This document shows positions 14,453 through 49,800 of a stretch of DNA of 64,000 bases, one piece after another. Each line of letters starts with the position of its first letter. Position 1 is the first letter of the stretch. The position numbers and the translations under genes were made by a program. The stretch is from Planctomycetota bacterium (GTDB taxonomy: Bacteria; Planctomycetota; Planctomycetia; Gemmatales; Gemmataceae). The notes below the pieces were generated by a model. It was not told where the DNA came from. It made no database searches and saw only the letters and a program-made list of their open reading frames with translations. The stretch spans positions 1 through 64,000 of the forward strand of contig JACPPF010000091.1 in the NCBI GenBank assembly GCA_016191165.1. The letters are read 5' to 3'.

Positions 14453-16822
14453 TTACAGCATATCCTGCGGATCGATATCCACCGTCAACTCAACGCCGCT
14501 CGGCAATCGCACGGTTGGCAGCACGGCGCGCAGGACCTGGTGTAATAAGCTGGAGCTGGCGCTGTGCATCTGGAAGTGGAAGCGGAAGTTGCCCTTGAGC
14601 CGAAACACCGGCGCTTCCGCGGGACCGAGCAGACGCAGGCCGGCTCTCGCCCCCGACCCTTCTCCCGGAGGGAGAGGTTGGCCGGCGTGGCGCTCAAGTT
14701 CAAGGCGAAAGCCGTCGGCGAGGCGATCGGCATAATCGTTGCCCGCCTTCTCGTCTTTGGACCGCACGATGAGCCTCGCCATGCGCTGGATTGGCGGATA
14801 GTTGTGTGCCTTGCGCTGCTGCATCTCTTCATGGGCGAACGTGAGGTAGTCGTGCTGGGCGGCGAGGATGATCGCGGGATGTTCGGGTTGCCAGGTCTGA
14901 ATGTAAACGAAGCCCGCCTGATCGCCGCGGCCCGTGCGACCGGCGACCTGGGCCAAAAGCTGAAACGTCCGCTCCGAAGCACGGAAGTCGGCATGGTGCA
15001 ATCCCACGTCCGCGTTGACGACGCCGACCAGCGTGACATTCGGAAAATCGAGCCCCTTGGCGATCATCTGCGTTCCCAGCAAGATCTGGATCTCGCCGCG
15101 GCGAAACGCCTCGAGCACTTTCTGATGGCTGCCAGGACGCTTCATCGTATCGCTATCCATGCGTTCGACCGCCTTGTGCGGAAATTTCCGCTCGATTTCC
15201 GCTTGCAGTTTCTCCGTACCCATGCCCTGATAGAGCACCTGCCCCGCGCCGCACACCGGACATTTGTCGGGCGGCTTTTGCTCGAAGCCGCAGTAGTGGC
15301 ACATCGTGACGTGCCGTTCCTTGTGGTAGGTCATCGACAGATCGCAAAACTTGCACTGTTCGACGTGCCCACACGCCGGGCAGTGCAGATAGGTCGAGAA
15401 CCCGCGGCGGTTCAGTAGCAGCATCACCTGCCCGCCAATGTCAAGGGCGTGTTTCATGGCGCGTTCAAGCGTGGGACTGATGCCGTGCGGCTTCTTGTCG
15501 GCATGGCGATCGTGCCTGAGATCGATCAGTTTCACCACGGGCAGCGGTCGATCCATGACCCGTTTGGGCAGTGTTAGCAGCGTGTACTGTCCGCGCAGGG
15601 CATTGTGCCAGCTTTCCAGCGACGGGGTCGCCGAGCCCAGGATGATCGGGATGTTCTCCAGGCGTGCGCGCATGACGGCAACATCGCGGCCATGATAGCG
15701 CGGCGTCTTCTCCTGCTTGAAGCTGGTCTCGTGTTCCTCGTCGATGACGATCAGGCCGAGGTTTTTCGTGGGCGCCAAGACGGCGCTGCGGGCGCCGATG
15801 ATGACCTGCACTTCGCCGCGCGCGATGCGCCGCCAGTGGTTGCCCCGCTCCGCGGTGTGCAAATGGCTGTGCAAGATCGCGATATTCTGGCAGCGGCCCT
15901 TGAAGGCGGCAATCGTTTGCGGCGTCAAGCTGATCTCGGGCACGAGGACGAGAGCTTCCTTGCCCTGACGAACGACTTCCTCGATGGCGCGGAGATAGAG
16001 CTCCGTCTTGCCGCTGCCAGTGATGCCGTGCAGGAGAAAGGGATGAAAACCCCCGGCTTGTAGGATCGGCTCGATCTTGGCCCAGGCGGCGGCTTGATCG
16101 GCGGTCAATTCGATTGCGCCGCCGTGTTGCCGTTCGCCTTGGGCGAACGGGGGTTCCGTGGGATCGTTTGGATTCGCGCTCGCCAGAGGCGAGCGGCTAA
16201 ACGGTTGCGAGATCGTGGTCGCGGTCTCGACGCGCCCGGCCTTGCGACGGGCCAAGCCCTTTTCCACCAGCGCCTCGATCGGGGCCGCGCCGCACCCGGT
16301 TTCGGCCGTCACCTGGCGAAGTTCGACCGGCGTCGGATGCGTTTGCAGATACTCGAAAACTCGCTTCTGCTTGGGCGAGAGATGCGGCAACGGAATGGGA
16401 AGTTGGGATTCTGGAACCAATTCCAGCAAGGGAACTTGTTTTGTGCCCGCCAGTTTCTTGACGCCGGCCGGGACAACCGCGTTGAGCACCTGGCCCCAGC
16501 CGCAGAGGTAATAATCCGCCATCCAGCGCGTCAACTTGAGCAGGTGTTCGGTCAGCAACGATTCATCATCAAGCACCTGGAGGATCGATTTGACTTTGCG
16601 CTCGGGCTTCGCGTAAGCCACGCCGACGCAGAAGCCGATCGTCTGGCGATCGCCGCGCCCAAACGGCGCTAGCACGCGCTTGCCGACGCCGATCTGGTCG
16701 AGCAGCGAGCCAGGCACGGCATAGGTGTAGGCGTGATCGAGCGGGCGGTCGAAGACGATCTCGGCGAAGCTCGTCTCGACCGAGGTGGCGATTTCATAAG
16801 GCTGGAAAAGGGTCGGTTGCAT
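14453..16822 (-). CDS. priA: Primosomal protein N' (replication restart helicase PriA)
   Basis: A 789-residue superfamily 2 helicase that reloads the replisome at stalled forks. The N-terminal DNA-binding part begins EIVFDRPLDHAYTYAVP. The helicase has Walker A GITGSGKTELYLRAI (about 266-280), IIGARSAVLAP, the DEEH box, LGSATPSLES and, further on, VAGRTGRGDQ. Zinc-binding cysteines are seen in CPACGHVEQCKFCDL and HYCGFEQKPPDKCPVCGAG. The C-terminus LLGPAEAPVFRLKG matches the family. Two repeat-derived peptides are inserted: residues about 205-234 (palindromes at 16130-16203), between the winged-helix part and the helicase, and about 714-727 (QPLPPGEGSGARA), just before LGPAEAP. The ATG at 16822 is chosen over a TTG at 16834; neither has a strong ribosome-binding site. 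Confidence 0.93.
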   Translation of the reverse strand: MQPTLFQPYEIATSVETSFAEIVFDRPLDHAYTYAVPGSLLDQIGVGKRVLAPFGRGDRQTIGFCVGVAYAKPERKVKSILQVLDDESLLTEHLLKLTRWMADYYLCGWGQVLNAVVPAGVKKLAGTKQVPLLELVPESQLPIPLPHLSPKQKRVFEYLQTHPTPVELRQVTAETGCGAAPIEALVEKGLARRKAGRVETATTISQPFSRSPLASANPNDPTEPPFAQGERQHGGAIELTADQAAAWAKIEPILQAGGFHPFLLHGITGSGKTELYLRAIEEVVRQGKEALVLVPEISLTPQTIAAFKGRCQNIAILHSHLHTAERGNHWRRIARGEVQVIIGARSAVLAPTKNLGLIVIDEEHETSFKQEKTPRYHGRDVAVMRARLENIPIILGSATPSLESWHNALRGQYTLLTLPKRVMDRPLPVVKLIDLRHDRHADKKPHGISPTLERAMKHALDIGGQVMLLLNRRGFSTYLHCPACGHVEQCKFCDLSMTYHKERHVTMCHYCGFEQKPPDKCPVCGAGQVLYQGMGTEKLQAEIERKFPHKAVERMDSDTMKRPGSHQKVLEAFRRGEIQILLGTQMIAKGLDFPNVTLVGVVNADVGLHHADFRASERTFQLLAQVAGRTGRGDQAGFVYIQTWQPEHPAIILAAQHDYLTFAHEEMQQRKAHNYPPIQRMARLIVRSKDEKAGNDYADRLADGFRLELERHAGQPLPPGEGSGARAGLRLLGPAEAPVFRLKGNFRFHFQMHSASSSLLHQVLRAVLPTVRLPSGVELTVDIDPQDML
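14641..14678. repeat. C-rich element inside priA
   Basis: Plus-strand CCCCCGACCCTTCTCCCGGA followed by GGGAGAGG, with CTCCCGGAGGGAG as palindromic core. It belongs to the same family as 26548-26590 (selA) and 48505-48542 (DUF1501 gene). Here it is read antisense and encodes about LPPGEGSGARAG near the PriA C-terminus. Confidence 0.75.
16130..16203. repeat. Two palindromes of the TTTAGCCGCTCGCC family inside priA
   Basis: 16130-16150 is a perfect hairpin: CCGTTCGCC, TTG, GGCGAACGG. 16173-16203 reads GCGCTCGCCAGAGGCGAGCG followed by GCTAAAC. Both are in frame in priA and translate to about residues 205-234, a stretch not expected in PriA. Confidence 0.8.
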
Positions 16823-16831
16823 GGAATTACT

Positions 16832-16870
16832 CAAGCCCGATCGTGAGCGCAGCGAACCTGCGGGATCCCG
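16832..16870. repeat. TGAGCGCAGCGAA-loop repeat in the priA leader
   Basis: CCCGATCG TGAGCGCAGCGAA CCTGCGGG. The loop is identical to the copies at 21544-21621 and 55516-55548, but the left arm no longer matches the right arm. It sits ten bases upstream of the priA ATG. Confidence 0.6.
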
Positions 16871-16979
16871 TCATTTCCTCCACTTTACGCGGGAAAACTG
16901 TGAAACGCGAGGTCAGTTGTGACTACTCGTATTGGGTCGGATCCCGCGCGGTGTCGCGCGGGCGCTAAATGGGGAAAGG

Positions 16980-18788
16980 TCAGTCCTGGGGCCGAGCTTC
17001 GCGCATGACGCTGTAGTGGTAGCCGAAGCCGAAGTAAATACACATCCCCAGCGCGAGCCAGGCGAAAAGGCGCACCCACGTCATCACGGGCAGGAAGAGC
17101 ATGAGCAGGACGTTGACGGCAATGCCCAGCGGCGCGACGATGTGAACGGCAGGACATTTGAACGGCCGATTGGCGTCCGGTCGCTTGATGCGAAGAATCA
17201 AGACGGCGGCGCAGACCACGGTGAACGCGAACAGCGTACCGATGTTGACCATCTTTTCCAGATCGGCAATCGGCGTGAAGGCGGCGACCAGGGCCATCGC
17301 CGAGCCGGTGAGCATGGTCGAGATGTGCGGCGTGCGAAATTTGTCGTGAACCGCGCCAAAGATAGCGTGAGGCATCAGGCCATCGCGTGCCATCGCGAGG
17401 AAGATGCGGGCCTGACTCAAGAATGTGATCAACAGGACGCTCGTCAAACCCGCCAGCGCGCCCGCGGCAATCAGGCCGCCCGAGGCCCGCAGCACCCAGC
17501 TATCCGTTGCCTTGGCCTGATCGGTAAACGCCGACGCGATGGCGGCGTGCGTGTCGATTTCGGGATACGGAACCATCCCCGTGATGACCGCGGACACGCC
17601 CAGATACAAGAGCGTGCAAATCACCAGCGACGCCAGGATGCCGATCGGCACGTCGCGTTGCGGTTTGATCGCCTCTTCGGAATGCGTCGAGATTGAATCG
17701 AAGCCGATGAAAGCGAAAAACACGAGGGCCGCGCCAAGCATGACGCCCGAGATGCCGTAGGGCATGAAGTTGTTGCTGGTCCGTTCATCGACCTTCTTGA
17801 GTGTCGCGTTCAGGCCCAGCTCGGCGATCATGCCCCACTTCTCGACGTTCATTTCGTCGATGAGTTCCTTGTTCTTGGCTTCATGCAGAACCGCCTCGGC
17901 CGCCGCGACGTCCTCCTTGGCAGCGGGGACGTCGTTGATGTATTTATGATGCAGCGCCTTCCAGAATTTTGCGCTCTTGGCGTCGGCCGCGTCCTGATGT
18001 TTCTCTGCCAGGCGAGTGAAGAGCAAGGCGTTCGCGTGTTTGGTGAGTGTGCTGCCATCAACGGCGTGTTTTTTTGAGTAGTCGGTGACGGCCTTGTCAA
18101 GAAGTATCTGCTCGGGAGTGCGGCGTGCCTCGGTCGGTATATCGTACCAGTTCGCCGGATCGACATAGGCCACGCCGACGACGATAACAAAGACCACCAC
18201 GCCAAGTTTCACCAGCACGAGCGCGGTGTTGGAGGCGGCGCTCTCGCGAATGCCGATCACCAGGATGGTCGTGCAGGCAATCAAGATCAGCGCGCCGGGC
18301 AGATTCATGATGCCGCCAGGGGTCGTGAAAGGTTCATTGCACCAGGCGGCGGGCACTTGCGGAATGTGGAGCACCTCCAGCAACTTGTTCAGATACTTCG
18401 CCCACACCGCGGCGACGACGGCGCCAGCCATCGAATATTCGAGAATCAAATCCCAGCCGATGATCCAGGCGATAATCTCGCCCAGCGTCGAATAGGCGTA
18501 GGTGTATGCGCTGCCCGCGACCGGCGCCATGGCGGCGAATTCGGAGTAACAGAACGCTGCCAGCACGCAGGCGATGGCGGCCACGACGTAGGACAGCAAC
18601 ACGCTCGGCCCCGCGTCGTTGGCGGCGACTTCGCCCGTCATCACGAAGATGCCCGCGCCGATGATCGCCCCGACGCCTAGCGACGTCAGCCCGACCGGAC
18701 CCAGCACGCGGCGCAGGCGGTTCTCCCCCTTGGCCTCCTCATCGAGCATTTCCAGCGTCTTGGTCGCGAAGATGCGGTTCCAGAACAT
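16980..18788 (-). CDS. APC-family amino acid permease with a 125-residue hydrophilic insertion
   Basis: A 602-residue inner-membrane transporter of the cationic amino acid/polyamine type. Family landmarks are GVGAIIGAGIFVMTG at about 38-52, SEFAAMAPVAGSAYTYAY at 82-99 and VFFAFIGFDSISTHSEEA near 356-372. In relatives the loop after VDPANW runs directly into the next membrane helix (here FMPYGISGVMLGAALVFFAF). Here a Lys/Glu/Ala-rich helical segment of roughly 125 residues (about 214-340) separates them. The ATG at 18788 is preceded by CGGAG; an upstream-extended frame only translates a palindromic repeat. It follows the NSS transporter and its small subunit in the same direction, so the three may be co-transcribed. 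Substrate is unknown. Confidence 0.9.
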   Translation of the reverse strand: MFWNRIFATKTLEMLDEEAKGENRLRRVLGPVGLTSLGVGAIIGAGIFVMTGEVAANDAGPSVLLSYVVAAIACVLAAFCYSEFAAMAPVAGSAYTYAYSTLGEIIAWIIGWDLILEYSMAGAVVAAVWAKYLNKLLEVLHIPQVPAAWCNEPFTTPGGIMNLPGALILIACTTILVIGIRESAASNTALVLVKLGVVVFVIVVGVAYVDPANWYDIPTEARRTPEQILLDKAVTDYSKKHAVDGSTLTKHANALLFTRLAEKHQDAADAKSAKFWKALHHKYINDVPAAKEDVAAAEAVLHEAKNKELIDEMNVEKWGMIAELGLNATLKKVDERTSNNFMPYGISGVMLGAALVFFAFIGFDSISTHSEEAIKPQRDVPIGILASLVICTLLYLGVSAVITGMVPYPEIDTHAAIASAFTDQAKATDSWVLRASGGLIAAGALAGLTSVLLITFLSQARIFLAMARDGLMPHAIFGAVHDKFRTPHISTMLTGSAMALVAAFTPIADLEKMVNIGTLFAFTVVCAAVLILRIKRPDANRPFKCPAVHIVAPLGIAVNVLLMLFLPVMTWVRLFAWLALGMCIYFGFGYHYSVMREARPQD

Positions 18789-18814
18789 GCGGGCTCCGGC
18801 AAAGGGTGAATTCG

Positions 18815-18878
18815 GTTTAGCCGCTCGCCTCTGGCGAGCGCGAAGGTTTAGCCGCACGCCACAGGCGAGCGGCTAAAC
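18815..18878. repeat. Tandem pair of TTTAGCCGC palindromes
   Basis: Copy one is 18815-18840 (GTTTAGCCGCTCGCC then TCTGGCGAGCG). Copy two is 18846-18878 (GTTTAGCCGCACGCC, then ACAGGCGAGCGGCTAAAC). The right end of copy two supplies the TAG stop (18873-18875, minus strand) of the small transporter-subunit gene. Confidence 0.82.
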
Positions 18879-19049
18879 GGGCCGATCGGTGATGCCGGGG
18901 TCACCCGGCTGGACATCGGTCGGCCCCGACGGCTCCTCAGGCCCGCTCAGCGGGCGCGCGGATGTCAGCAGCTTGAAGAAGCAGTAACCCGTCATGACCA
19001 GAATGACAGACCATACCACCAGCATGAAGATCAGGGCCGACGTGTTCAT
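18873..19049 (-). CDS. Small single-span subunit of an NSS transporter (MetS-like)
   Basis: A 58-residue protein: MNTSALIFMLVVWSVILVMTG makes one membrane span, followed by CFFKLL and a short acidic/proline-rich tail. This is the pattern of the MetS family, small subunits needed by some sodium-dependent methionine/alanine importers. Its ATG overlaps the stop of the adjacent NSS transporter by four bases (ATGA), which indicates translational coupling. The stop codon is formed by a palindromic repeat, so the last residues may have been altered by that insertion. The larger frame upstream of 19049 overlaps the transporter gene and is not used. Family assignment is by pattern and context. Confidence 0.75.
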   Translation of the reverse strand: MNTSALIFMLVVWSVILVMTGYCFFKLLTSARPLSGPEEPSGPTDVQPGDPGITDRPV

Positions 19050-20959
19050 GGAGAGTGTCCTTTCGAAGCGCGCTTCCTCCAGGCGACAAACACCAGGATC
19101 GAGAAGAACGCATAGGCGCCGACCATGACCAGGCGATCCAGGTCGCGCCACATCGGCAAGCGTTCGTAAAACTCCTCCGCCAGGCGCCGTTCGGCGATCA
19201 ATTCCTGCGTCCGGGCGTCGCGCTGCGATGGCGTCAGTTTGCCCGCGTCAATCAGGCCCTTCCGTTCGGCGTTCAGCGTCAATTTCTTGGCATCGCGCTC
19301 GTAGTCGCGCAGGTTGCTTTGCGTGTCGAGGTCGGCGATTCTCTTGTTGAGGTCCGCGACACGCTTCTCCCGGTCCGTCGCGTTGAGCGCGACGTTGGTC
19401 AATTTGCTCTGGAAATTCTTCAGCTTGCTCTCCCGGGTTTCTTCGACATCGACGTGCAACAGCTTGCCGATCATGCCGTCGCCCGACCATTCCCACGCCG
19501 GCGCGGGCGTGCCGTTCGTGAACGCTTCGACGTAGGCATTCCACCCACTCTTCGGTAAGAACGTGAAGCCAAGCAAGATCACGAGCAGGAATACGGGCGT
19601 GACGTATTTGATGATGAAGAAGAAGATTCGTGGAATCGCCAGTTCCGCGCCGTTGGTCATCTCCTTCCAGCCAAGGTCCATGCCGAAAACCCACGCGAAC
19701 AGGATCGCCTCCCCCAGCGCGAAAACCACGAGCATGAACGTGCCCGCCCAGAAGTCGAACTCGTCAAAGAACGTGTTGCCATGCATCAACGCGACGGGTA
19801 ACGCCAGCGGCAGAAGGCACAGGCCAAATGCCAGGGCGGCCTTGTCACGGTTGAGGCCAAACTCCTCTTGCAAAAAGCCCATGAGGGGCTGACCCATCGC
19901 CAGTGAACTCGTGATGGCCGCGAAAAAAAGCAGTCCGAACCACATGAACCCCGCCACCGGCGCGAAGGCGCCCCATTTGTTGAACAACGTCGGGAACACC
20001 ATGAAGCCGAGCGAAAAACCGGAACCGCCTTCGGTTCGATTGACCACTTCCGGCAAGCCGAGGTAGGCAACGGCAATGGGGATCAGGATGGTGCCGCCAA
20101 GGATGACTTCGCAGAATTCGTTCGTCCAGCCGGCGGTTGCGCCGGTCAAGGCGACATCATCGGTTTCGCGTAGATAGGAGGCATAGCAATGGATCGAGCC
20201 CATGCCGATCGATAGCGTGAAAAAGATCTGTCCCGCCGCGGCAAGCCAAACGGAGGGATCCTTGAGCGATTCAAAACGAGGTTCCCAGATGAAATTCAGG
20301 CCATCCAGCGCCGGCTGCACGGCGCCTTGCGGGTCGTCCGGATCGGGCGTGATGAAAATGCCGCGCACGGCCAAGATGGCGGCGAAAATAATCAGCAACG
20401 GCATGCCGATCTTGGAGACGATCTCGATCCCCTTGGCCAAACCGCGCGACAAAATATAGACGTTGAGCGAAATGCAAAGCATGAACAGAATCATGCCCCA
20501 CCAGCTAAAGGCGAAGAGGTGATAGTCGCGTTCACCGGTAAGGGAGCCGAAGAATTCTCCAGGATTGGTCGCCTTCTCGCCGGTGAACCCGCCGACGAGC
20601 GAGTAGCCGGCGTAGGCCAGGGTCCAGGTTTCGATGTACAGGTAGAAAGCCGCGATAACCAGGCAGGACCAAAGGCCCATGACGCCGAAGTATTTCCAGA
20701 GCGGGTTTTTGCTGAACGACTGAAAGATGCCCGGCGTGGAGTGATGCCCCTTCTGCCCGCCGAAGCGGCCCATGGCCCATTCGACCCAGATCAACGGCAA
20801 GCCAAGAACCACGAGCGCGACGAGGTACGGGATGAGAAAAGCCCCGCCGCCGTTTTTGGCGGCCTGGGCGGGAAAGCGCAAAAAATTACCCAGGCCGACT
20901 GCGTTGCCTGCCATCGCCAGGACCAGGCCGACGCGTGACGCCCATCGTTCTTTGGCCAT
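19046..20959 (-). CDS. Sodium-dependent neurotransmitter:sodium symporter (NSS/SNF family)
   Basis: A 637-residue inner-membrane symporter, probably for amino acids. The first helix signature GNAVGLGNFLRFPAQAAKNG with GGGAFLIPY holds sodium and substrate ligands of the LeuT fold. About eleven further helices follow. Between the penultimate and last membrane helices lies an extra hydrophilic stretch of about 90 residues (around 500-590) rich in Lys, Glu, Arg and Leu and predicted coiled coil, for example DREKRVADLNKRIADLDTQ. The family does not usually carry this. The last helix is LVMVGAYAFFSILVFVAW. Its stop overlaps the start of the MetS-like subunit, with the APC permease downstream. The start MAKERWASRVG is the family-typical N-terminus. 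Confidence 0.92.
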   Translation of the reverse strand: MAKERWASRVGLVLAMAGNAVGLGNFLRFPAQAAKNGGGAFLIPYLVALVVLGLPLIWVEWAMGRFGGQKGHHSTPGIFQSFSKNPLWKYFGVMGLWSCLVIAAFYLYIETWTLAYAGYSLVGGFTGEKATNPGEFFGSLTGERDYHLFAFSWWGMILFMLCISLNVYILSRGLAKGIEIVSKIGMPLLIIFAAILAVRGIFITPDPDDPQGAVQPALDGLNFIWEPRFESLKDPSVWLAAAGQIFFTLSIGMGSIHCYASYLRETDDVALTGATAGWTNEFCEVILGGTILIPIAVAYLGLPEVVNRTEGGSGFSLGFMVFPTLFNKWGAFAPVAGFMWFGLLFFAAITSSLAMGQPLMGFLQEEFGLNRDKAALAFGLCLLPLALPVALMHGNTFFDEFDFWAGTFMLVVFALGEAILFAWVFGMDLGWKEMTNGAELAIPRIFFFIIKYVTPVFLLVILLGFTFLPKSGWNAYVEAFTNGTPAPAWEWSGDGMIGKLLHVDVEETRESKLKNFQSKLTNVALNATDREKRVADLNKRIADLDTQSNLRDYERDAKKLTLNAERKGLIDAGKLTPSQRDARTQELIAERRLAEEFYERLPMWRDLDRLVMVGAYAFFSILVFVAWRKRASKGHSP

Positions 20960-21044
20960 GATGTGTCCTTCATCGTGGTGTTTGCAAATGACGTGATAAG
21001 ACTACCAACTATTCAAGGCATCGGCAAAGGTCATTTTGGCGTTT

Positions 21045-21084
21045 ACGTTTAGCGAGCGCGTGGGATACTGCGGGCGCTAAACGT
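21045..21084. repeat. Hairpin ACGTTTAGCG...CGCTAAACGT after dtd
   Basis: A perfect 10-bp stem (21045-21054 with 21075-21084) lies just beyond the dtd stop and near the start of the divergent NSS gene cluster leader. It shares the TTTAGCG/CGCTAAA ends with the TTTAGCCGC palindromes. It may also end dtd transcription. Confidence 0.6.
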
Positions 21085-21089
21085 GTACG

Positions 21090-21530: not shown

Positions 21531-21543
21531 GGTGTAATCCTTG

Positions 21544-21621: not shown

Positions 21622-21633
21622 CCGGTTATTTCC

Positions 21634-25638: not shown

Positions 25639-27081
25639 TCAAGGATTTGCGGGCATTCCGCACATGCCGCACAATTTGACGGCTTGCACCAGCGAATCGA
25701 TCTGGTCGGGGAAGATCGTGCGGACGTCGAACACGATTTTGCCGTCGCGAACCCTTGCCATCACGGCCGGGGCGCCGAGCCGCAGGCGCTGGGCGAATTC
25801 GGCGTCGCTCAAGGTCTGTGGTTTGACCTCGACGATCCAGGTCCGCATCGTCTGATCGGGCAGCGACCCGCCGCCGACATAGGCGACATCCTCGGCCATC
25901 GCGACCGATTCCAGACTCCCAAGAGCCGTCAACCGGGAAGCGAGGTCCTCGGCGCGCGTTTTCAATTCTTCACTCGTCATGCTCAATAACCGTAGTACGG
26001 GAATGTCGCGCAGAGCGGCGTCCTCGTTGAGATAGATGCGTAAGGTCGCTTCGAGCGCGGCGAGCGTCATCTTGTCGCAACGGAAGGCGCGCATGAGCGG
26101 ATCCTTCTCGATGCGCTGGATGAGTTCCTTCCTTCCGGCGAGGATGCCCGCCTGCGGGCCACCAAGCAACTTGTCGCCGCTGAAGAGGACGAGATCGGCG
26201 CCGGCGGCGACGCTGGCCCGCGCGATCGGTTCGCCGGTGAAGCCGAAGCGGTTGAAGTCGAGCAGGGCGCCGGAGCCGATGTCGTCGATCACGGGCAGGT
26301 TGTGCTTTTTGCCGAGCGTGACGAGTTCCTCGGTCGTGACCGACTGGGTGAAGCCGGCGATGCGATAGTTGCTGGTGTGGATTTGCATGAGGGCGGCGGT
26401 TTGGGGACCGATCGCCTTTTCGTAATCGCTCAAGCGCGTGATGTTGGTGGCGCCGACTTCACGCAGCGTGGCGCCGGACACGGCCATGATCTCCGGGATA
26501 CGGAAGCTGCCGCCAATTTCGATAAGCTGGCCGCGTGACACGATCACCTCCCCTCTCCCTCCGGGAGAGGGGCCGGGGGTGAGGGTGAGCGTGCGCAGGG
26601 CGATGACGGTTGCCGCCGCGTTGTTGTTGACGACGGTTGCGGATTCCGCGCCGGTGAGGCGCGTGATCCATTCACGGATTGGGTCCTGGCGACTGGAACG
26701 TTTGCCCGTGTCGAGATCGAGTTCGAGATTGAGGTAGCCGCGCGCCGCGTCGTAGGCGGCTTTTGCCGCTTCCTCGGCGATGGGGGCGCGGCCCAGGTTG
26801 GTGTGCAGGACGATGCCGGTGGCGTTGATGACGCTGCGCAAGCGCGGTTGAAGATCAACGCGAAGGCGATTCTGCACGCGCAGGGCGATTGCCTCGGCGC
26901 CAGGGGCTCCGTTGCGGGATTCGCCGTCAAGGACCTTAACGCGAATAACCTGGAGTTCCGCGCGGATGGCGTCAACGATCAGGTCATGCGCGTGGCGCGT
27001 CTGCAATTCTTTGATCGCATCGGTGTCCAGAATCTGCGTCACCGACGGCAACCGGCGCAAGGGATTGTCAGATCGGCTCAT
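25639..27081 (-). CDS. selA: L-seryl-tRNA(Sec) selenium transferase
   Basis: A 480-residue PLP enzyme that converts Ser-tRNA(Sec) to Sec-tRNA(Sec). Family landmarks are LPSVTQIL at the start, INATGIVLHTNLGRAP, VNNNAAATVIAL, SRGQLIEIGGSFRIPEIM, SNYRIAGFT and the PLP-lysine motif LFSGDKLLGGPQAGI. Between VNNNAAATVIALRTL and VIVSRGQLIEIGG there is an extra peptide (about 166-178, LTPGPSPGGRGE) encoded by a C-rich repeat; relatives have only a few residues there. The ATG at 27081 is used; an in-frame ATG at 27114 adds 11 residues without homology. No selB, selD or tRNA(Sec) is present in the window. Confidence 0.94.
   Translation of the reverse strand: MSRSDNPLRRLPSVTQILDTDAIKELQTRHAHDLIVDAIRAELQVIRVKVLDGESRNGAPGAEAIALRVQNRLRVDLQPRLRSVINATGIVLHTNLGRAPIAEEAAKAAYDAARGYLNLELDLDTGKRSSRQDPIREWITRLTGAESATVVNNNAAATVIALRTLTLTPGPSPGGRGEVIVSRGQLIEIGGSFRIPEIMAVSGATLREVGATNITRLSDYEKAIGPQTAALMQIHTSNYRIAGFTQSVTTEELVTLGKKHNLPVIDDIGSGALLDFNRFGFTGEPIARASVAAGADLVLFSGDKLLGGPQAGILAGRKELIQRIEKDPLMRAFRCDKMTLAALEATLRIYLNEDAALRDIPVLRLLSMTSEELKTRAEDLASRLTALGSLESVAMAEDVAYVGGGSLPDQTMRTWIVEVKPQTLSDAEFAQRLRLGAPAVMARVRDGKIVFDVRTIFPDQIDSLVQAVKLCGMCGMPANP
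26548..26590. repeat. C-rich element inside selA
   Basis: Plus strand CCCTCTCCCTCCGGGAGAGG followed by GGCCGGGGGTGAGGGTGAG. It is the reverse complement of the 48505 copy and carries the same CTCCCGGAGGGAG-type core. It is read in frame in selA as about LTPGPSPGGRGE. Confidence 0.8.
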
Positions 27082-27171
27082 GTTGTTCCACAGGTTTGGC
27101 GGCCGCGAGGTCATATCGGAATGACGCCTTGCAGCAACGACGGATCGTTGACGATATCGTACCAGGATGAG

Positions 27172-30379: not shown

Positions 30380-30452
30380 TGGTGAGAGTCGGGATTGAAC
30401 CGACGACCCCAGCCTTTTCAGGGCTGTGCTCTACCAGCTGAGCTATCTCACC
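30380..30452 (-). tRNA. tRNA-Phe (GAA anticodon)
   Basis: Read on the minus strand: acceptor GGTGAGA pairs with TCTCACC, D arm GCTC...GAGC, anticodon stem CAGCC/GGCTG with loop CTGAAAA (anticodon GAA), and T arm GTCGG-TTCGAAT-CCGAC. The discriminator base is A and the CCA is not encoded. All stems close without mismatches that I can see. Confidence 0.96.
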
Positions 30453-38935: not shown

Positions 38936-38944
38936 GGAAAAAAA

Positions 38945-42982: not shown

Positions 42983-43342
42983 GGTTTTTTCCTTGCGCCA
43001 ATACAGGAAAGGACATTTTGGGGTGGGAAGGCGAGCAACAACAAGCCTTTGATGAAACACCGAGCTGTTGCCCGAGTTTCGGCCAAGCAGGCCTATTTCT
43101 TTGAGGTCCATGTTAGTTTGCGCGATTTCGGGGGAGGTTGCAACGGAAAATGAGGTTTTTTGTCTCGGGCGGCTTTCTACAAGAACTGGAATCAAGCGAT
43201 GCACGGCGTGAAGTCCCCCGTGTTGCCAGCACCACCCATCTTCCGGATGATAAGCATTTGCTCTTGAATCTTCCCGGCGGATGTGCCAAAAGCCAGACTT
43301 GACCCGGAATTCGGGCCGCTCTCGGTTTATTGGCAACGGCTT
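42983..43342. other. Divergent intergenic region, 360 bp
   Basis: This gap holds the leaders of the DUF1501 gene (minus) and the TPR gene (plus). It is richer in A/T in its left half (about 42985-43160). I found no clear pair of promoter boxes and no gene. Confidence 0.35.
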
Positions 43343-45793
43343 ATGACACCTTCGACAACTCCTATCGGCGCCAGGGTCGGGCGGGCACGCCGCGGCGTCG
43401 GGCAGCTCTGGCAGGTGCCGACGTTTCTTTTCGGCCTGCTGGCCGTCCTGGGCGTCGCCGCCAGTTCTCCCTGGCGCCAGACGCCACAGTGGCGCGAGTT
43501 TGACGGCTTGATCTCATCCCTGCGCGTCGGACTCGACAAGGGCGAACCGACCGATTCACTGGTCGGCCTGGCCGAACAAATTCACGCGCATATGGCCGCT
43601 TTCCCGGGCCGCAAGGCCGAGGCCCATTTCCTGATCGGCTCCGCCCTTTACCAGCAAGCGCGTGCGAACCCCGCTTCCACCGCGCACGACATTTGGCCTC
43701 GCGCCATGGACCATCTGGAGCAGGCTTTCACCCTCGGCGTCCGCGAACACGATCGGCCCGCCTTGCATTACCGGCTAGGGTATTGTTGGTATCAACAAAA
43801 AACGAATGTGCCGCGCGCCCTGGAGTTGATGACGCAGTCCGTTGACAAGGGAGCGCGGCAGCCGCTGGAGGGGTACCGCTTGCTGATCGAGGCGTATTTG
43901 CAACAGCAACCGGTCAACCTGGATGCGGCCCTGGCGGCATGCCGGCGCGTTCTCGATTTGACGCCCTCAAAAGACGCCGACGCTCAGGCGCGGGCTCGCT
44001 TGCAGATCAGCCAGGTCCTGTTGCGCAAGGGCCAACGCGCCGACGCGAACAAGGAACTGGCACGCATCGGCGCCAAGGCGCCCCGAGCGATTCGCCTTCA
44101 AGCTCGTCTCCTGCAAGCGCAGGCCTACGAGGAGGACAACCAATGGACCGAAGCGATCACGATCTGGCGCGGCTTGCTCGCTGACGCCCCCCACGTCGAG
44201 GGTGGACGTGTCCGCATCTGCTACGCCCTGGGCAAGTGCTTGCAACAAAAGGAACCGCCCGACAACGCCGAGACGATGCGCGTCTGGGCGGACGCGCTTC
44301 GCCTGGGCGGCCCGGCCGGGCAGGCGGCGGGTTTGCGCCTCGGACAGTTGCGTCTGGTGCTCGATGGCGCGCAGGCCGGGCAGGCGCTGGCGGACTGGAA
44401 AACCGCTCTGGCAAACGTCAAGATCCCGGCCGATTTCCGCAATCCATTCGTCAAAACCCAGGAATTGCGAGCCTGGTTCGATCACGCAATCGAACGTTTT
44501 CAGGCGGCGCAGGACCCGGAAAAGACTCAGGCCGTGGCCGAGCTTTATCGCAAGATCGCCCCAGGGGACGAGGCCGACGAGCGCATCGCGCGCGCGGCGG
44601 AATCGCTGGCTCAACAGTTGGCCGCCAAGCACAAGGCGATGCTCGACAACATCCAGGCGGAGGATGTGCAGGCCCAATATCGCCGCGCCGGCGCCGCCTG
44701 GGAACACGCGGCTCAGTCGCGCCCCGCGGCTCAGCGCGCCGATTCATTTTGGCGCGCCGCCCAGTGCTACCTGGCGGCCCGAGATTCCGCGCACGCCCAG
44801 CAAGTCCTGCAGCAATTTGTCAAGATCGAACCCAACGACCGCCGCCTCGCCGAGGGCTGGCTCGCCCTGGGCGACCTCTATCGCCACGCAGGCGATCAGG
44901 ACAGCTCCCACAAGGCGTATCACAAATGTATCGAGATTCCCAGCACCGAGTTCGCCCACCGCGCGCGCCTGCACCTGGCCATCGCCCAGAAGAAACAGAA
45001 CAACCTCGTCAAGGCTCGTGAAATCCTCGATCAAATCCTCACCAATCAAGGTCCGCAACTCGATCGGCCCACGCAGGAAAAGGCGCTCTACCAAATGACC
45101 CTGGTCCTCATGCTCATGAAAAACCACGGCGAGGCGCGCATTCACCTCAAGAACTTCGTCCAGAACTTTCCGGAAAACCCCAACGTCCTGGTGGCACGCG
45201 AACGGCTCGGCGAATGCGCCCGCCAGCTGGCCAAGTTCGAGTTCATCGAGGGGGACAAGCTGCGCTCCACCATCAAGGTCGGCATGCCGCTCGAAGTTCA
45301 GCAGGGCGTCGAGGAGCGCATTCGCGCCCATCGCTCCGCGGGCAAGGCTCTGCTCAAGGAGTCGGCAAACGATTATCAACGGTTGGTCGATGAACTGGAA
45401 ACCAAGGCCCGTAGCAAAAACTCGCTGACCGACGTCGAGGCGATGTTGCTGCGCCGCGCCTGGTTCGGGATAGGTGATTGTTATTACGATGACGAGGAGT
45501 TCACCGAATCGCTGCGTATCTTCACAAAACTTCAGGAATCCCACCGCCGCACCGTCGAGGGCCTTTTCGCAGCCACGCGCGTCTGTGGTCTGGCCACCCT
45601 GCTGCGCCAGCCGATGACGGGCCTGCGTTCGATTCGCATGTTGCAGGAAGACCTCAAGGCAATGCCGGAAAATGATGAGGTCTTCCGCACCGCGGACGTC
45701 CCCACCCGCGAAGTCTGGCAGCGCTGGTCGCAGGACACCGAACGCCGGCTGTTGACGCCGCCACGCAAGGACACCGGGCCGGTGTTTCGCTGA
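43343..45793 (+). CDS. TPR-repeat protein with one N-terminal membrane span
   Basis: An 816-residue protein. A short cytoplasmic start is followed by the membrane span VPTFLFGLLAVLGVAASS (about 23-40). The rest is helical with many TPR-like units, for example AHFLIGSALYQQARANP, YCWYQQKTNVPRALELM, ARAEILDQILTNQ-like segments and LALGDLYRHAGDQDSSHKAY. The ATG at 43343 is chosen; an upstream GTG (43283) lacks a ribosome-binding site. The extracytoplasmic TPR array suggests an assembly scaffold or partner of secreted complexes. No enzymatic motif. Confidence 0.82.
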   Translation: MTPSTTPIGARVGRARRGVGQLWQVPTFLFGLLAVLGVAASSPWRQTPQWREFDGLISSLRVGLDKGEPTDSLVGLAEQIHAHMAAFPGRKAEAHFLIGSALYQQARANPASTAHDIWPRAMDHLEQAFTLGVREHDRPALHYRLGYCWYQQKTNVPRALELMTQSVDKGARQPLEGYRLLIEAYLQQQPVNLDAALAACRRVLDLTPSKDADAQARARLQISQVLLRKGQRADANKELARIGAKAPRAIRLQARLLQAQAYEEDNQWTEAITIWRGLLADAPHVEGGRVRICYALGKCLQQKEPPDNAETMRVWADALRLGGPAGQAAGLRLGQLRLVLDGAQAGQALADWKTALANVKIPADFRNPFVKTQELRAWFDHAIERFQAAQDPEKTQAVAELYRKIAPGDEADERIARAAESLAQQLAAKHKAMLDNIQAEDVQAQYRRAGAAWEHAAQSRPAAQRADSFWRAAQCYLAARDSAHAQQVLQQFVKIEPNDRRLAEGWLALGDLYRHAGDQDSSHKAYHKCIEIPSTEFAHRARLHLAIAQKKQNNLVKAREILDQILTNQGPQLDRPTQEKALYQMTLVLMLMKNHGEARIHLKNFVQNFPENPNVLVARERLGECARQLAKFEFIEGDKLRSTIKVGMPLEVQQGVEERIRAHRSAGKALLKESANDYQRLVDELETKARSKNSLTDVEAMLLRRAWFGIGDCYYDDEEFTESLRIFTKLQESHRRTVEGLFAATRVCGLATLLRQPMTGLRSIRMLQEDLKAMPENDEVFRTADVPTREVWQRWSQDTERRLLTPPRKDTGPVFR

Positions 45794-45926
45794 GAGTGCC
45801 TGGGGTGGACGGGCAGCCAACTTTCCGTTTTTTTCCATCTTCACGTTTTTTGCAATTGCTTCGCAGTTTTGTAAAGCCGATGATGAAGAAAGTGTGAGCC
45901 CGATTGTAATGACGGGATCTTCACTT

Positions 45927-46156
45927 CGTCGCTTGCGCTTCCGGCTAACACCGCCTGCGGTTAGGCGAGCGGCAGGAAAAAATATCCCCACCAGCCCGGA
46001 GCGCACGCGACGGGTCCAGCGGACATCTGCCCCGTCGCTTGCGCTCCGGGCTGGTAAGTTAATACCGACCGCTCGCCTTAGCCGGAAGCGCAAGCGACGG
46101 ATGAATGGAATTTACAAACAATACCAGTCAATCCGCCGCTTGCGTTTCCGGCTAAC
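45927..46156. repeat. Nested inverted repeats: one palindrome inside another
   Basis: Outer arms 45927-45948 and 46078-46099 are perfect 22-bp inverted repeats (CGTCGCTTGCGCTTCCGGCT type), extended by a second 12-bp pair (45961-45972 with 46069-46080). Inside them, 45990-46014 and 46031-46055 form a separate 25-bp inverted pair (ACCAGCCCGGAGCGCACGCG type, one mismatch). A lone extra copy of the outer arm is at 46133-46156, just before the 46170 gene. Confidence 0.87.
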
Positions 46157-46169
46157 GACTCGTAATCAC

Positions 46170-46475
46170 ATGACGAAACGTCTCCCCCGATCCCTGCGTC
46201 CATTTTTCTGGGACTACGACTTCGCGCGCCTGTCCTGGAAAGCTGACCGCGATTTGATTATTGGCCGAATCCTCGCGGTTGGCACCTGGGACGCGCTGCG
46301 CTGGTTGCGGCGTCGAGTGCCGGACGCGGAATTGCGCGCCTGGCTGGAGCATCGGCGCGGGGCGGGGTTGAGCAATCGGCACCTGCGGTTCTGGGAACTC
46401 ATCCTCAAGATTCCGCGGCGTAAGGTCAATGCTTGGTTCGCCGATCCCGCGCGGCAGATTTGGGAGGGGCGATAA
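46170..46475 (+). CDS. Putative antitoxin, DUF6922-like (101 aa)
   Basis: Starts MTKRLPRSLRPFFWDYDFAR, then LIIGRILAVGTWDALRWLR and a helical basic tail ending RQIWEGR. The RPFFWDYD...LSW...LIIGRIL...GTWDALRWL pattern is that of small proteins found beside AbiEii-type nucleotidyltransferases, which I recall as DUF6922. The stop is five bases before the nucleotidyltransferase start, so the two form an operon. The longer frame upstream of 46170 only translates repeats. An antitoxin role is inferred from position. Confidence 0.72.
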   Translation: MTKRLPRSLRPFFWDYDFARLSWKADRDLIIGRILAVGTWDALRWLRRRVPDAELRAWLEHRRGAGLSNRHLRFWELILKIPRRKVNAWFADPARQIWEGR

Positions 46476-46480
46476 CGCGC

Positions 46481-47113
46481 ATGGCCTGGCATCCCGAAAT
46501 TCTGGCGCAACGGCAGCAACGTGTGCTGGCCCAAATCGGGCCAGCGCTGGCGCAACGCGGTTTCTACCTGGCCGGCGGCACTGCCGTTGCGCTGCACCTT
46601 GGACACCGCCGTTCGGTCGACCTCGATTGGTTCGCGCCTGAACTGACTGATCCCGAGCGCCTGGCCATCGACCTTCGTGAGCAGGCCATTCCCTTCGCCA
46701 CCGAAGACGTGGCTCCGGGAACTCTGCACGGCGCCGTTTGTGGCGTTCGTGTAAGTTTGTTGCGTTACCGTTACCGGATGCTTTCTGGTTTGCGCACGCT
46801 ACCCGGCGGGATTCCCATCGCAGGCCGTGCCGACCTCGCGGCCATGAAATTGTTGGCAGTCGCCCAGCGGGGCGCCAAGAAGGACTTCGTGGACATCTAC
46901 GCCCTGGGCAGACGAGCCAAGTCGTTGCGGCAAATGTTGCGGTGGTATAAGGGCAAATTCGCGGTTGAGGACGTTGCCCATCTCCTGCGCAGCTTGGCCT
47001 ATTTCGACGACGCCGACCGGGAACGACTGCCACGGATGTTGTGGGATGTGCGCTGGCGGGATATTAAAGAGACCATACAGCGCTGGGTCCGCAGGGTAGC
47101 GCAGTACGCATAA
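46481..47113 (+). CDS. AbiEii-type nucleotidyltransferase, putative toxin
   Basis: A 210-residue protein of the AbiEii/AbiGii toxin family. The nucleotidyltransferase core shows FYLAGGTAVALHLGHRRSVD and LDWF; the GGT and SxDLD pattern holds metal-binding acidic residues. The second half contains ADLAAMKLLAVAQRGAKKDF with VDIYAL, which is typical for the family. AbiEii toxins add nucleotides to tRNA ends or other targets and act in type IV-like toxin-antitoxin systems. GGGAGGGG overlapping the end of the previous gene is its ribosome-binding site. A shorter upstream GTG (46433) is rejected because it would overlap the previous gene. Confidence 0.82.
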   Translation: MAWHPEILAQRQQRVLAQIGPALAQRGFYLAGGTAVALHLGHRRSVDLDWFAPELTDPERLAIDLREQAIPFATEDVAPGTLHGAVCGVRVSLLRYRYRMLSGLRTLPGGIPIAGRADLAAMKLLAVAQRGAKKDFVDIYALGRRAKSLRQMLRWYKGKFAVEDVAHLLRSLAYFDDADRERLPRMLWDVRWRDIKETIQRWVRRVAQYA

Positions 47114-47132
47114 TACCTTACGAGATTCAGGA

Positions 47133-47498
47133 TCAAGGTTTGGCCGTCGGTTTGCGCATGCGATGCCGACCGGGTTCGACGACCACGAATGCCATTTGCA
47201 AATCTGCCTCCGGGTAAAGAGACAATACACGTTCAAGCTCGGCATGAACGGCGTCGCGAGTCGATGGCAGAATCCGTAGATAAATGACGCCCGGCGCGTT
47301 GCCCTGCACAAAGACGAGGCTGCCGAAATCGCGGTCGCGCGTCACGAGGATGCGCCCGTGTTGTTGAGCCAGTTTGAGTAGATCGACGTCGTCGGCCTGC
47401 GCCAAGCCAAGTTCGGACGCTGTCACTACGTCCTGGCCCAGCCCACGAAGGAATACCGTCGTGGCGGCCCAAACGTCTTGATCGGTGAGAAACTTCAT
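47133..47498 (-). CDS. DUF5615 family PIN-like toxin
   Basis: A 121-residue protein of the PIN-like DUF5615 family, a predicted ribonuclease toxin. The acidic positions lie in KFLTDQDVW, ASELGLAQADDVDLLKLA and ILVTRDRDFGSLVF. The gene overlaps the end of the DUF433 antitoxin gene by four bases (ATGA) and is therefore the second gene of the pair. Its stop is 19 bp from the stop of the AbiEii-like gene, so the two modules face each other tail to tail. Confidence 0.88.
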   Translation of the reverse strand: MKFLTDQDVWAATTVFLRGLGQDVVTASELGLAQADDVDLLKLAQQHGRILVTRDRDFGSLVFVQGNAPGVIYLRILPSTRDAVHAELERVLSLYPEADLQMAFVVVEPGRHRMRKPTAKP

Positions 47499-47725
47499 GG
47501 CGTTGCGGCCAGGTGAATGTCTTCAAGAGCCACGACGTCCATCGCATATTGAATGCACGCACGAATGTCGTCCGGTTCCAGGTCGGGGTAATAATCGCGG
47601 ATGATGTCGGCAAACGGCAAGTTCTCGCGAACCAGTTCCAGCACGCTCTGCACGGGAATGCGCGTGCCGGCCACGCACGGTTTGCCGAAGTGAATTTGCG
47701 GATTGACGGTGATGCGGGGGGTCAT
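47495..47725 (-). CDS. DUF433 family antitoxin
   Basis: A 76-residue protein: MTPRITVNPQIHFGKPCVAG, TRIPVQSVLELVRENL and FADIIRDYYPDLEPDDIRA. This is the usual DUF433 winged-helix antitoxin sequence (GKPCxxGTRIPV). Its stop overlaps the start of the DUF5615 toxin, giving a translationally coupled pair. The ATG at 47725 has GGAAG upstream; longer frames start in an A/T-rich stretch without homology. Antitoxins of this type normally autorepress their operon. Confidence 0.9.
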   Translation of the reverse strand: MTPRITVNPQIHFGKPCVAGTRIPVQSVLELVRENLPFADIIRDYYPDLEPDDIRACIQYAMDVVALEDIHLAATP

Positions 47726-48167
47726 GGATAATACTTCCTTTGGCGGAATCGATACAAGACAATTATCTTGGTTTACACAAGGTGTCACAAGGGGAAATTC
47801 CGATATGCCGGATCACAGGGTGGCCGTGCTCAAGACCTGGGCAACGCTCGGCGCCAAATTCATCGCGATCCGTTGGTGGGCGGCATATTGTTGTCTCACA
47901 TGGCATTCCGAAGATCCAAAGCTGTCGTGTTGCATCAGCGAAAACTTTCCCACGCGAAAATTGGCGACGGGAATACACGAGAGGTTTCGGCGAATCAACG
48001 CCAAGGCTTTGTGGGTTGACGACAGGGAGGTCGGCATTAGTTTGGAACTAAAACCCGAGGCAGGAGCTTGTTTTGAAGAGATATTGGAGGGCCTGTCGGT
48101 GCAATGGATTAAGATCTGGAAGAAAGCAGGAGGAATGAAACAGGTCCTTAAGGAATGTAGCGTATGA
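47724..48167 (+). CDS. Doubtful hypothetical gene beside the toxin-antitoxin modules
   Basis: A frame of about 147 codons opens opposite the DUF433 start and includes MPDHRVAVLKTWATLGAK, GIHERFRRINAKALWVDDR and VQWIKIWKKAGGMKQVLKEC. The last third looks like real protein; the first third does not, and composition shifts to lower G+C. An internal ATG at 47805 is a possible start. It could be a decayed gene with a frameshift, part of the small accessory island. No ribosome-binding site is convincing. Confidence 0.3.
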   Translation: MDNTSFGGIDTRQLSWFTQGVTRGNSDMPDHRVAVLKTWATLGAKFIAIRWWAAYCCLTWHSEDPKLSCCISENFPTRKLATGIHERFRRINAKALWVDDREVGISLELKPEAGACFEEILEGLSVQWIKIWKKAGGMKQVLKECSV

Positions 48168-48423
48168 AAGTACCGGGCCGTTCTCGCTCCGGCAGACTGC
48201 CAGGCATCATGCGTCCATTATTGTCAAGCTCCGTTGGACAGTGCTTCGCGCCCGTGCTAACATGTCCCCAACGATCAACCCAGTAATCCTGGGCCGCTGT
48301 GGGACCATCGGAACGTGTGCCCCTGGTTGTTTCGATCTCCGGAAACGCTGGAAAAACCGTGGTTTTTGGGGTTTTCCAGAGGCGCACGGTGGTTGCGCCC
48401 CTTTTCGAACTGAGGCTCCTGTC
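48168..48423. other. Leader of the DUF1501 gene with alternative hairpins
   Basis: AAAAACC-GT-GGTTTTT (48352-48367) and CTGGAAAA...TTTTCCAG (48348-48379) overlap and cannot form together. They lie about 45 bp before the ATG at 48424. Either may be chance. Confidence 0.3.
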
Positions 48424-49800
48424 ATGCTGACTCGCCGCTCTTTGTTGCAAATTGGCGCCGCGGGCGTTTTCGGGGCGCTGCCGCTGGCGCCTTCCGCAAC
48501 GCCCTCACCCCCGACCCCTCTCCCAGGGGGACAGGGGAGGAGAAGGCGTCGGGCCAAATCGGTCATCTTTCTGCATCAATACGGGGGCCCCAGCCACCTC
48601 GATACTTTTGACATGAAGCCGGCCACGCCGCCGGAGTTTCGCGGCATCTATCGGCCGATTCAAACGTCCGCGCCAGGCATCCAGATTTGCGAAAAGCTCG
48701 CTCGCCTGGCGCCGCACATGGACAAGGTGACGCTCATTCGCACCGTGCGGCACGAGATGCGCAATCATAACTCGGCCGGGTATTACAGCCTCACCGGGTA
48801 CGCACCGCCGACCGACGATCAACGCCTGCGCGATTCGCGCGAGCTTTTCCCAGCGTATGGCAGCGTCGTCGATCGCTTCGGCCCCGCGGAATCCGGAACG
48901 CCAACCTTTGTGTCGTATCCCTACGTCATCGCCGACGGCTCGATCACTCCGGGACAGCACGCAAGTTTTCTGGGGCAGACGTACGATCCGTTCTTCATCC
49001 AGCAAGATCCAAACTCGGACGATTTCCGCCTGCCCGAGCTGAGCCTCCCCGCCGGCGTCACGGCCGAACGCCTGCAAAATCGTCGCGCGGTGATGAACCT
49101 GATCGACCGCTCGACCGAGATTCTCGAAATCTCCGCCCGCGCCCGCGGCATCGACGCCCTGACCCAGCGCGCCATGACGATGTTGACCAGCCGACACTTT
49201 CGCCAGGCGTTCGACCTGTCGAGCGAACCGCTATCGATGCGCGAACGCTATGGCCGCACGACCTATGGCCAGGGCTGTTTGCTGGCACGCCGGCTGGTGG
49301 AAGTGGGCGTCAAATTCGTCACTGTCTATTTCGCGGCCTCGATCGGCGGGCAATCGAAGGTGTCAGGCGGCTGGGACACGCACGGGTTCAACAACGTGCC
49401 GATGTATCCGATCCTCAACGATTACCTGCTGCCGATCACCGATCAAACGCTGCCGACTTTGATCGAAGATCTGCACGTGCGTGGCTTGCTCGACGACACA
49501 CTCGTCGTCTGGGCGGGCGAGTTCGGGCGTGGCCCGCGCATCAACAACATCGCCGGGCGCGATCACTGGCCGCAATGCTACACGGTGCTCATGGCCGGCG
49601 GCGGCGTGCGCGGCGGGCACGTCCACGGCGTCAGCGACCGTGTCGGCGCGTACCCCTCGCGCGATGCCGTGCGGCCCGAGGACCTGTCGGCGACGATGTT
49701 TCATCTCTTGGGCATCGACCCGCACGCCGAGGTGCGCGACGCCCTCAATCGGCCACTGGCGCTTTCGACGGGAAGTGTGATTGACGGGATCCTTCGGTAG
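48424..49800 (+). CDS. DUF1501 family protein with repeat-derived linker
   Basis: A 458-residue Tat-type exported protein (MLTRRSLLQIGAAGVFGALP). Residues of about 25-41 (ATPSPPTPLPGGQGRRR) are encoded by a C-rich repeat and sit exactly between signal and mature part. The mature DUF1501 part has FLHQYGGPSHLDTFDMKP, RHEMRNHNSAGYYSLTGYAP, VSGGWDTHGFNNVP and VVWAGEFGRGPRINNIAGRD. It carries no DUF1549 gene beside it, unlike the other two DUF1501 genes here, and is convergent with the third DUF1501 gene. A bidirectional terminator lies just after the stop. Confidence 0.9.
   Translation: MLTRRSLLQIGAAGVFGALPLAPSATPSPPTPLPGGQGRRRRRAKSVIFLHQYGGPSHLDTFDMKPATPPEFRGIYRPIQTSAPGIQICEKLARLAPHMDKVTLIRTVRHEMRNHNSAGYYSLTGYAPPTDDQRLRDSRELFPAYGSVVDRFGPAESGTPTFVSYPYVIADGSITPGQHASFLGQTYDPFFIQQDPNSDDFRLPELSLPAGVTAERLQNRRAVMNLIDRSTEILEISARARGIDALTQRAMTMLTSRHFRQAFDLSSEPLSMRERYGRTTYGQGCLLARRLVEVGVKFVTVYFAASIGGQSKVSGGWDTHGFNNVPMYPILNDYLLPITDQTLPTLIEDLHVRGLLDDTLVVWAGEFGRGPRINNIAGRDHWPQCYTVLMAGGGVRGGHVHGVSDRVGAYPSRDAVRPEDLSATMFHLLGIDPHAEVRDALNRPLALSTGSVIDGILR
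48505..48542. repeat. C-rich element inside a DUF1501 gene
   Basis: CCCTCACCCCCGACCCCTCT followed by CCCAGGGGGACAGGGGAGG. It is the same element as in priA and selA, in the third reading frame and in sense orientation, giving PSPPTPLPGGQGRR. Confidence 0.8.

Follow-up and report, generated by a model that had tools for sequence, protein, structure and literature searches.

A BoxC/PIT/TM-type palindrome inside predicted genes of a planctomycete, and how it may have spread

Three copies of one palindrome in a 64-kb window

The window studied here is the whole stretch from position 1 to 64,000 of contig JACPPF010000091.1, from a Planctomycetota bacterium of the family Gemmataceae (assembly GCA_016191165.1), and its subject is a short C-rich palindromic element that recurs within genes. 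Searching the window, which has a G+C content of 62%, with the pattern CCCTCTCCCNNNNGGAGAGGG and up to three mismatches, we found the element at exactly three places (six strand-wise matches). The number of matches expected by chance is 0.25, and the maximum in 100 shuffles was 2. The copies and their host genes are as follows.

14646..14679, plus strand: TM/BoxC-like element, priA copy; diverged, with 19/21 head and 8/10 arm positions matching
14453..16822, minus strand: priA (primosomal helicase), host; Pfam PriA_3primeBD, DEAD and PriA_C; PDB 6dcr_A, E 2.2e-124
26550..26583, minus strand: TM/BoxC-like element, selA copy; perfect head and arms; codes TLTPGPSPGGRG
25639..27114, minus strand: selA (L-seryl-tRNA(Sec) selenium transferase), host; Pfam SelA, E 7e-142; 3w1h_A, E 8.5e-108
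48504..48537, plus strand: TM/BoxC-like element, DUF1501 copy; would code PSPPTPLPGGQG
48424..49800, plus strand: DUF1501 protein gene; start inferred at the ATG before a Tat-like motif; Pfam DUF1501, E 1.2e-94, domain 44-457

The initial annotation had described one C-rich element in priA, selA and the DUF1501 gene, translated in three different reading frames, and all three peptides are indeed present as written. On the C-rich strand, phase 0 is used by selA (LTPGPSPGGRGE) and phase 2 by the DUF1501 gene (PSPPTPLPGGQG). The priA copy, inside the PriA_C domain, is read on the opposite strand as PLPPGEGSGARAG (PLPPGEGSGAR). The initial annotation had also placed every copy within a gene. This is so for priA and selA; the DUF1501 copy, which lies in a linker between a Tat-like signal (MLTRRSLLQIGAAG...) and the Pfam domain (from residue 44), falls inside its gene only by the inferred start. 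Our gene finder starts this gene at 48613, downstream of the copy, which is tallied outside genes in the totals below. Given the inferred start, we consider it likely that this copy is translated.

A member of a known family, mostly inside genes

We collected 154 copies from 98 stretches of this genome (L042-L138 and the window; 1.06 Mb), which were picked around known copies. The genome comprises 7.23 Mb in 183 contigs. Across all of it, the perfect hairpin has 104 forward matches and 103 on the other strand, mostly at the same places, whereas its reversed control has none; the asymmetric 21-mer CTCACCCCCRRCCCCTCTCCC, with at most one mismatch, has 135 matches. The consensus of the 154 copies is CC-CTCACCCCCRRCCCCTCTCCC, a loop of mostly 3, 5 or 6 nucleotides, and GGGAGAGGGG, often followed by AG. 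Its core spans 34-37 bp and the whole C-rich palindrome about 36-40 bp. When copies cluster they tend to be paired, and 20 of the 26 multi-copy clusters are inverted pairs (-+) with the heads facing inward. A rule by which loop length and flank together keep the element a multiple of three was considered and rejected, since the co-variation of loop length with the number of leading C also occurs in intergenic copies.

By its sequence, the element is the minimal monomer of a known GC-rich triplex motif (BoxC/PIT/TM, here TM), CCCTCACCCCCRRCCCCTCTCCC-loop-GGGAGAGGGGAG. The TM blocks CCCTCTCCC, GGGAGAGGG and, on the other strand, GGGTGAGGG are present both in the consensus and in its alignment with two E. 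coli copies. Because these three blocks are the same as in E. coli TM, whose copies in Table 1 of PMC4666352 carry them, we count the element as a member of this family. Holder et al. (2015, PMC4666352) describe BoxC/PIT/TM as a G+C-rich intrastrand triplex motif found in E. coli and in over 260 bacterial genomes. They report that single-stranded E. coli TM oligonucleotides form triplexes in vitro, and they propose that instability around TMs is due to replication trouble. The planctomycete copies resemble these TMs in having three blocks able to form a triplex, as judged from the bases, a short variable loop, inverted pairs and a patchy distribution. They differ in location: the 23 copies of E. 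coli MG1655 are reported in that paper as always intergenic, whereas predicted genes contain 111 of our 154, spread over five frames. Two E. coli loci carry the flank GTGCGCGCTGATG, which is absent here, where flanks vary beyond CC; the listed BoxC length of 56 belongs to the E. coli form with that flank.

Other short palindromes invite comparison. The CCCTCTCCC-XX(X)-GGGAGAGGG repeats of Enterobacter sp. 638, present in one hundred copies, are the same palindrome; PMC2869309 places them often at gene 3' ends, with a presumed role in termination. The initial annotation had likened the element to Rickettsia palindromic elements (RPEs), and of this comparison the concept stands, in that a dispersed module is apparently tolerated as peptide, while the identity is that of BoxC/PIT/TM and not of an RPE. 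As described in PMC2229807, RPEs are 105-146 bp long, have terminal inverted repeats, are named Rickettsia-specific and sit in frame in conserved protein genes, where they are tolerated as peptide; the present element is far shorter, has another sequence and occurs in many phyla. It works like an RPE but is not a member of that family. GTAG/CGTC REPs are likewise short palindromes that form dimers and occur in open reading frames (ORFs), some of them in genes for DNA repair proteins and tRNA synthetases, although most are intergenic according to Di Nocera et al. (2013, PMC3733652). In our set, TM seldom flanks RAYT genes directly, with one diverged copy beside a strong gene, and copies at a greater distance from such genes are described below; none of the 154 listed copies with their flanks has a terminal GTAG or CGTC. 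A search of the open-access literature matched no paper to the peptide strings of the element, and it gave no recognised earlier report of TM inside genes, most subscription papers lying outside that search.

To place the copies relative to genes we used our own gene finder, a simple Markov model that learned from long ORFs and gave a coding fraction of 0.80. With it, 111 copies lie wholly within predicted genes, 41 outside and 2 at gene edges, compared with 119.9, 27.6 and 6.5 for positions drawn at random from the same stretches. The 111 intragenic copies are spread over 92 genes, with two or more in 17 of them, and by cluster 93 of 126 are inside genes, 30 outside and 3 mixed. When genes were called more strictly and copies searched for a little more widely, 113 and 96 of 160 copies were inside genes (random, 72% and 58%). 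Orientation relative to the gene is even, 55 vs 56. By frame, the intragenic copies divide into 30/10/15 on the element strand and 25/31/0 on the opposite strand, the zero being the frame with a TGA.

That TGA means that five of the six frames of the consensus are open, and not all six. The idea that the absence of stops accounts for the tolerance fails. Eleven other palindromic families in the same stretches are 0-36% intragenic (12/40, 9/48, 37/104, 6/42, 11/62, 0/31, 20/62, 16/78, 1/9, 0/13 and 5/41), and several of them have five or six open frames; those are 0-21% intragenic. Because equally open families are mostly intergenic, we reject stop-freeness alone as the cause of the intragenic prevalence. 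One of the eleven families has a GTAG-type end (GGTCAGGCTGGAAAGCCTGACCTACG).

The wide spread expected by the initial annotation is borne out, as the motif occurs in many phyla among the matches listed. We scanned one genome per species, obtaining at least 117 stretches, and used 78 of 80 named loci (two short loci were left out). Among the matches listed, 25 of 111 copies at these loci are in genes: 3/27 in Chloroflexota, 5/16 in Planctomycetota, 6/38 in Proteobacteria, 0/9 in Cyanobacteria and 11/21 in others, five of these 11 being in one Akkermansiaceae gene. The intragenic share is higher in the window's own genome than at these loci (p about 1e-15). In stretches picked around copies, another genus of the same family (G310, with a gene model from its own genome) has 2 of 41 copies in genes and another family (G320) 2 of 43, with a random expectation of 0.67 for each. 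The window's species is extreme in its intragenic share. Whether copies are mostly intergenic, a point on which the initial annotation had made its idea depend, is therefore answered differently by lineage, because intragenic prevalence is a property of this one: copies are mostly inside genes in its own genome and mostly intergenic in other lineages. Numbers vary as well, from 6 to 226 copies per genome among seven congeners, and 14 of 294 genomes sampled evenly across the phylum have a match to the motif (own genome counted in both).

The Akkermansiaceae gene just mentioned (L231:2316-4601) encodes an HsdM/N6-methylase with a DUF559 domain and carries five TM copies; two further TM-bearing genes of the named-loci set (L225, L269) are both DNA methylases. 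Prevotella and Prevotellaceae genes for an electron transfer flavoprotein and a UxaC-type isomerase (L242, L250) carry the peptide, so that this is another intragenic lineage. A long-loop variant with CTGAGTACAG in the loop forms near-uniform inverted dimers in G310 (L346-L365) and occurs also in the congener G295 (L455-L458). In G320 (L475-L494), TM copies stand within a longer conserved context, partly as direct arrays about 200 bp apart, and are nearly all intergenic.

Host proteins and empty sites

We scanned 40 TM-bearing genes with Pfam, hand-picked from the 92 and supplemented with the DUF1501 gene of the window. A match was found in 39, among them one (ThuA, L048) that was below the curated cut-off. 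The peptide is inside a domain in 19 of the 40, in two of these between two stretches of one domain. Hosts include PriA, SelA, GatA (amidase) and GatB, as well as three aminoacyl-tRNA synthetases (valyl, aspartyl and tyrosyl) identified by their combinations of domains. MutL and a RimO/MiaB-like radical SAM enzyme carry the peptide in an interdomain position. DUF1501 proteins make up 10 of the 40 scanned hosts, and seven DUF1501 paralogues (window, L064, L066, L068, L105, L107 and L124) have the copy in the linker just before the domain. This recurrent placement marks the pre-domain linker as a permissive hotspot.

An AlphaFold2 model of the window's SelA, made with 13 relatives, has a mean predicted local distance difference test score (pLDDT) of 78. 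In this model the peptide occupies residues 178-189, between a helix (165-177) and a strand (190-192), and pLDDT falls below 50 at residues 183-186. The alignment to 3w1h has its gaps at the same helix-strand turn. The SelA peptide thus seems to form a flexible loop at that turn in the modelled structure.

Homologues without the peptide, which the initial annotation had called for, are plentiful. We compared 24 SelA and 27 PriA loci, of which 23 and 25 cover the insertion site (PriA L176 and SelA L162 do not reach it, and PriA L174 ends with its contig there); the peptide is in none of the 23 SelA and 25 PriA relatives. L174, the priA of the congener G295, has another sequence near the insert site, AGRASDGVGNPSLAR, perhaps another repeat. 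In SelA, four residues separate L and E in 22 of the 23 relatives and five in one, whereas the window has twelve (TLTPGPSPGGRG). In other words, about 12 host bases, coding for AQGR-type residues, have been replaced by about 36, with no duplication.

Within the genus, the comparison rests on one relative, G299, for which we searched 0.72 Mb with 111 queries at a flank identity of at least 0.6; 19 rows gave 17 sites after two pairs were merged. The search set also held one locus of G297 (L323), which had no hits. Twelve of the 17 sites are empty in G299, two have TM in both genomes (L058 in the same frame, L084 in a different one), two have another palindrome (L129, L137) and one, L063, is too divergent to judge. 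L069, with a flank identity of 0.62, may be a paralogue. The coding sequence that flanks the inserts remains conserved. The net gain relative to G299 is 8-13 residues for single copies (nine sites) and 29-30 for pairs (two sites); L119_5001, with 24 additional residues and extra sequence, is outside the 8-13 set. A fixed net insertion length is rejected on account of this variation from 8 to 13 residues.

The second palindrome of G299 was at first taken for a GGCACGGC repeat; this was rejected, the actual sequence being AAAGCCCAGGGACGGCCGTCCCTGGGCTTT. Eight of the 14 copies of this palindrome in the G299 stretches are intragenic, and in G299 mutL and a PSCyt2/PSD1 gene (L403, L427) it stands at the exact sites of own-genome TMs. 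Because AAAGCCCAGGGACGGCCGTCCCTGGGCTTT occupies TM sites in G299, different elements appear to reach the same permissive loops.

E. coli strains often differ in whether a site carries TM. Three empty alleles at ilvC-ppiC all have TAGCGATTCAGAGT, and occupied alleles have 55 bp containing TM in place of 14. The empty state is probably the older one, since the same 14 bases are common to divergent strains. The hrpB-mrcB and adk-hemH sites also look substitutional.

How the element may have spread

In this planctomycete, TM appears to have inserted recently and repeatedly, in both orientations and regardless of frame, into conserved genes among others. We favour, with slightly better than even confidence, a substitution-like spread of this known element, which is tolerated as a Pro/Gly-rich loop. 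Selection would remove copies that shift the frame, meet the TGA frame or hit a site other than a loop. The remaining copies would be kept because every open frame codes for a flexible peptide of about 12 residues rich in Pro, Gly, Ser, Arg and Glu. Less surely, spread may proceed by copy-and-replace, in which a short single strand or a template switch, stabilised by the hairpin or triplex, is joined at a replication gap; a few to about 15 host bases would be lost, and no dedicated transposase would be needed. An analogue may be what Harms and colleagues in 2016 reportedly called short-patch double illegitimate recombination, in which microhomologies mark where a short host segment is substituted; the likeness is the substitution seen at selA and ilvC-ppiC. 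A bolder version, in which TM is transposase-free selfish DNA, a self-folding strand patched into replication gaps in place of host bases in many phyla, with core enzymes as its habitat in this genus because each open frame codes for a flexible loop, strikes us as rather doubtful. If true, it would make TM a natural source of loop peptides added in frame to essential proteins.

A number of results pull the other way from a substitution-like, tolerated spread. As to target-site duplication, selA and ilvC-ppiC show replacement, but at E. coli pst the alleles differ cleanly by 92 bp with an 8-bp direct repeat at the boundaries, and phn and one hrpB allele have the appearance of arm-to-arm deletions. 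In congeners, copies are found in genes less often than random positions: 13 of 26 in G299 (0.71 Mb of stretches selected without regard to copies; random 0.80) and 15 of 41 in G295 (stretches picked around copies; random 0.66). The lack of copies in the TGA frame is to some extent circular, since such a copy would terminate the called gene. The in:out ratio of 111:41 exceeds the roughly 1.2:1 that a frame and stop filter leaves of random positions, and so is not fully explained. Lastly, two associations involve genes with Y1_Tnp matches, of which the own genome has 11. Five of the 11 are no more than 3 kb from a copy, against an expectation of 1.1 (p 0.003, the distance having been chosen afterwards), and among 31 genomes the motif is present in 11 of 14 with a Y1_Tnp match above 60 bits vs 4 of 17 others (p 0.004, uncorrected for kinship).

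These associations bear on the best of the alternatives, which we regard as plausible but the less probable: TM would be non-autonomous and moved in trans by a transposase, of the Y1 (RAYT/IS200-like) type or another, as REPs and REPINs are, and the replaced bases would reflect later decay of the loop. The predominance of inverted pairs with inward heads fits such an element, as do the near-uniform inverted dimers with related middles in G310, where 17 of 20 loci matched the search string. We read 39 Y1_Tnp loci with up to 1.5 kb of flank, 21 of them with a match above 60 bits. The motif is in the flanks of just three, namely L039 and L040, both weak Y1_Tnp matches, and L391 of G314, the only one of the 21 with a relative of the motif. 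There, a diverged TM-like hairpin (TCATCCCCCTAACCCTCTCCCCAGAGGGGAGAGGGG at L391:1979; 15/21 head, 10/10 arm) follows a strong Y1_Tnp match at a distance of about 130 bp and has other hairpins next to it. Because of this copy and the excess within 3 kb, we place less weight on the substitution-like reading and more on a transposase. Against the latter, the own genome's two strong Y1_Tnp genes are 2.2 and 2.6 kb from the nearest copy, and within 1.5 kb the excess shrinks to 2 of 11 genes (p 0.12). The Y1_Tnp locus L366 is flanked by its own, different hairpins, TM copies have neither a GTAG nor a CGTC end, and the net gain in SelA is smaller than the element. Nor did Holder et al. (2015, PMC4666352) find mobility genes or a transposase around TMs.

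A retention effect is compatible with both readings: intergenic copies would be lost faster through indels, while genic ones would be protected by the frame. This would account for the unexplained part of the in:out ratio. However, intragenic and intergenic copies match the consensus equally well (mean scores of 29.6 and 29.5 out of 31), and the other palindromic families have no such genic excess, so we consider it unlikely. It is far less probable still that the peptide has a function and is under selection, the element being spread as a linker of use to its hosts or as a regulatory RNA or DNA structure in genes. Intragenic substitutions are slightly fewer at codon positions 1-2 (59/2108) than at position 3 (50/1111; p 0.014), a weak sign of coding constraint in these sequences. 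Yet five different peptides are in use, orientation is unbiased, the mean scores just given are the same in and out of genes, and most comparable sites are empty in a congener. Convergent low-complexity coding sequence, to which a short, C-rich repeat in a 62% G+C window might be put down, is refuted by the match counts in the window and genome, and relatives lack the element at the same sites.

What sets this case apart is that a motif reported as intergenic in E. coli has spread into scores of apparently intact genes, core enzymes included. For the question of how BoxC/triplex motifs spread, the 92 predicted genes offer many datable sites with protein-level anchors; the best-anchored one, selA, shows substitution and not simple insertion. 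The host list suggests that some ten recently inserted residues can be accommodated by core enzymes such as aminoacyl-tRNA synthetases, GatA/GatB, PriA and MutL. It also carries a warning for annotation, as recurrent peptides such as LTPGPSPGGRGE are repeat-derived and are not domains. Elsewhere in the window, the sole Rfam match is a tRNA gene at 30380-30452 on the minus strand.

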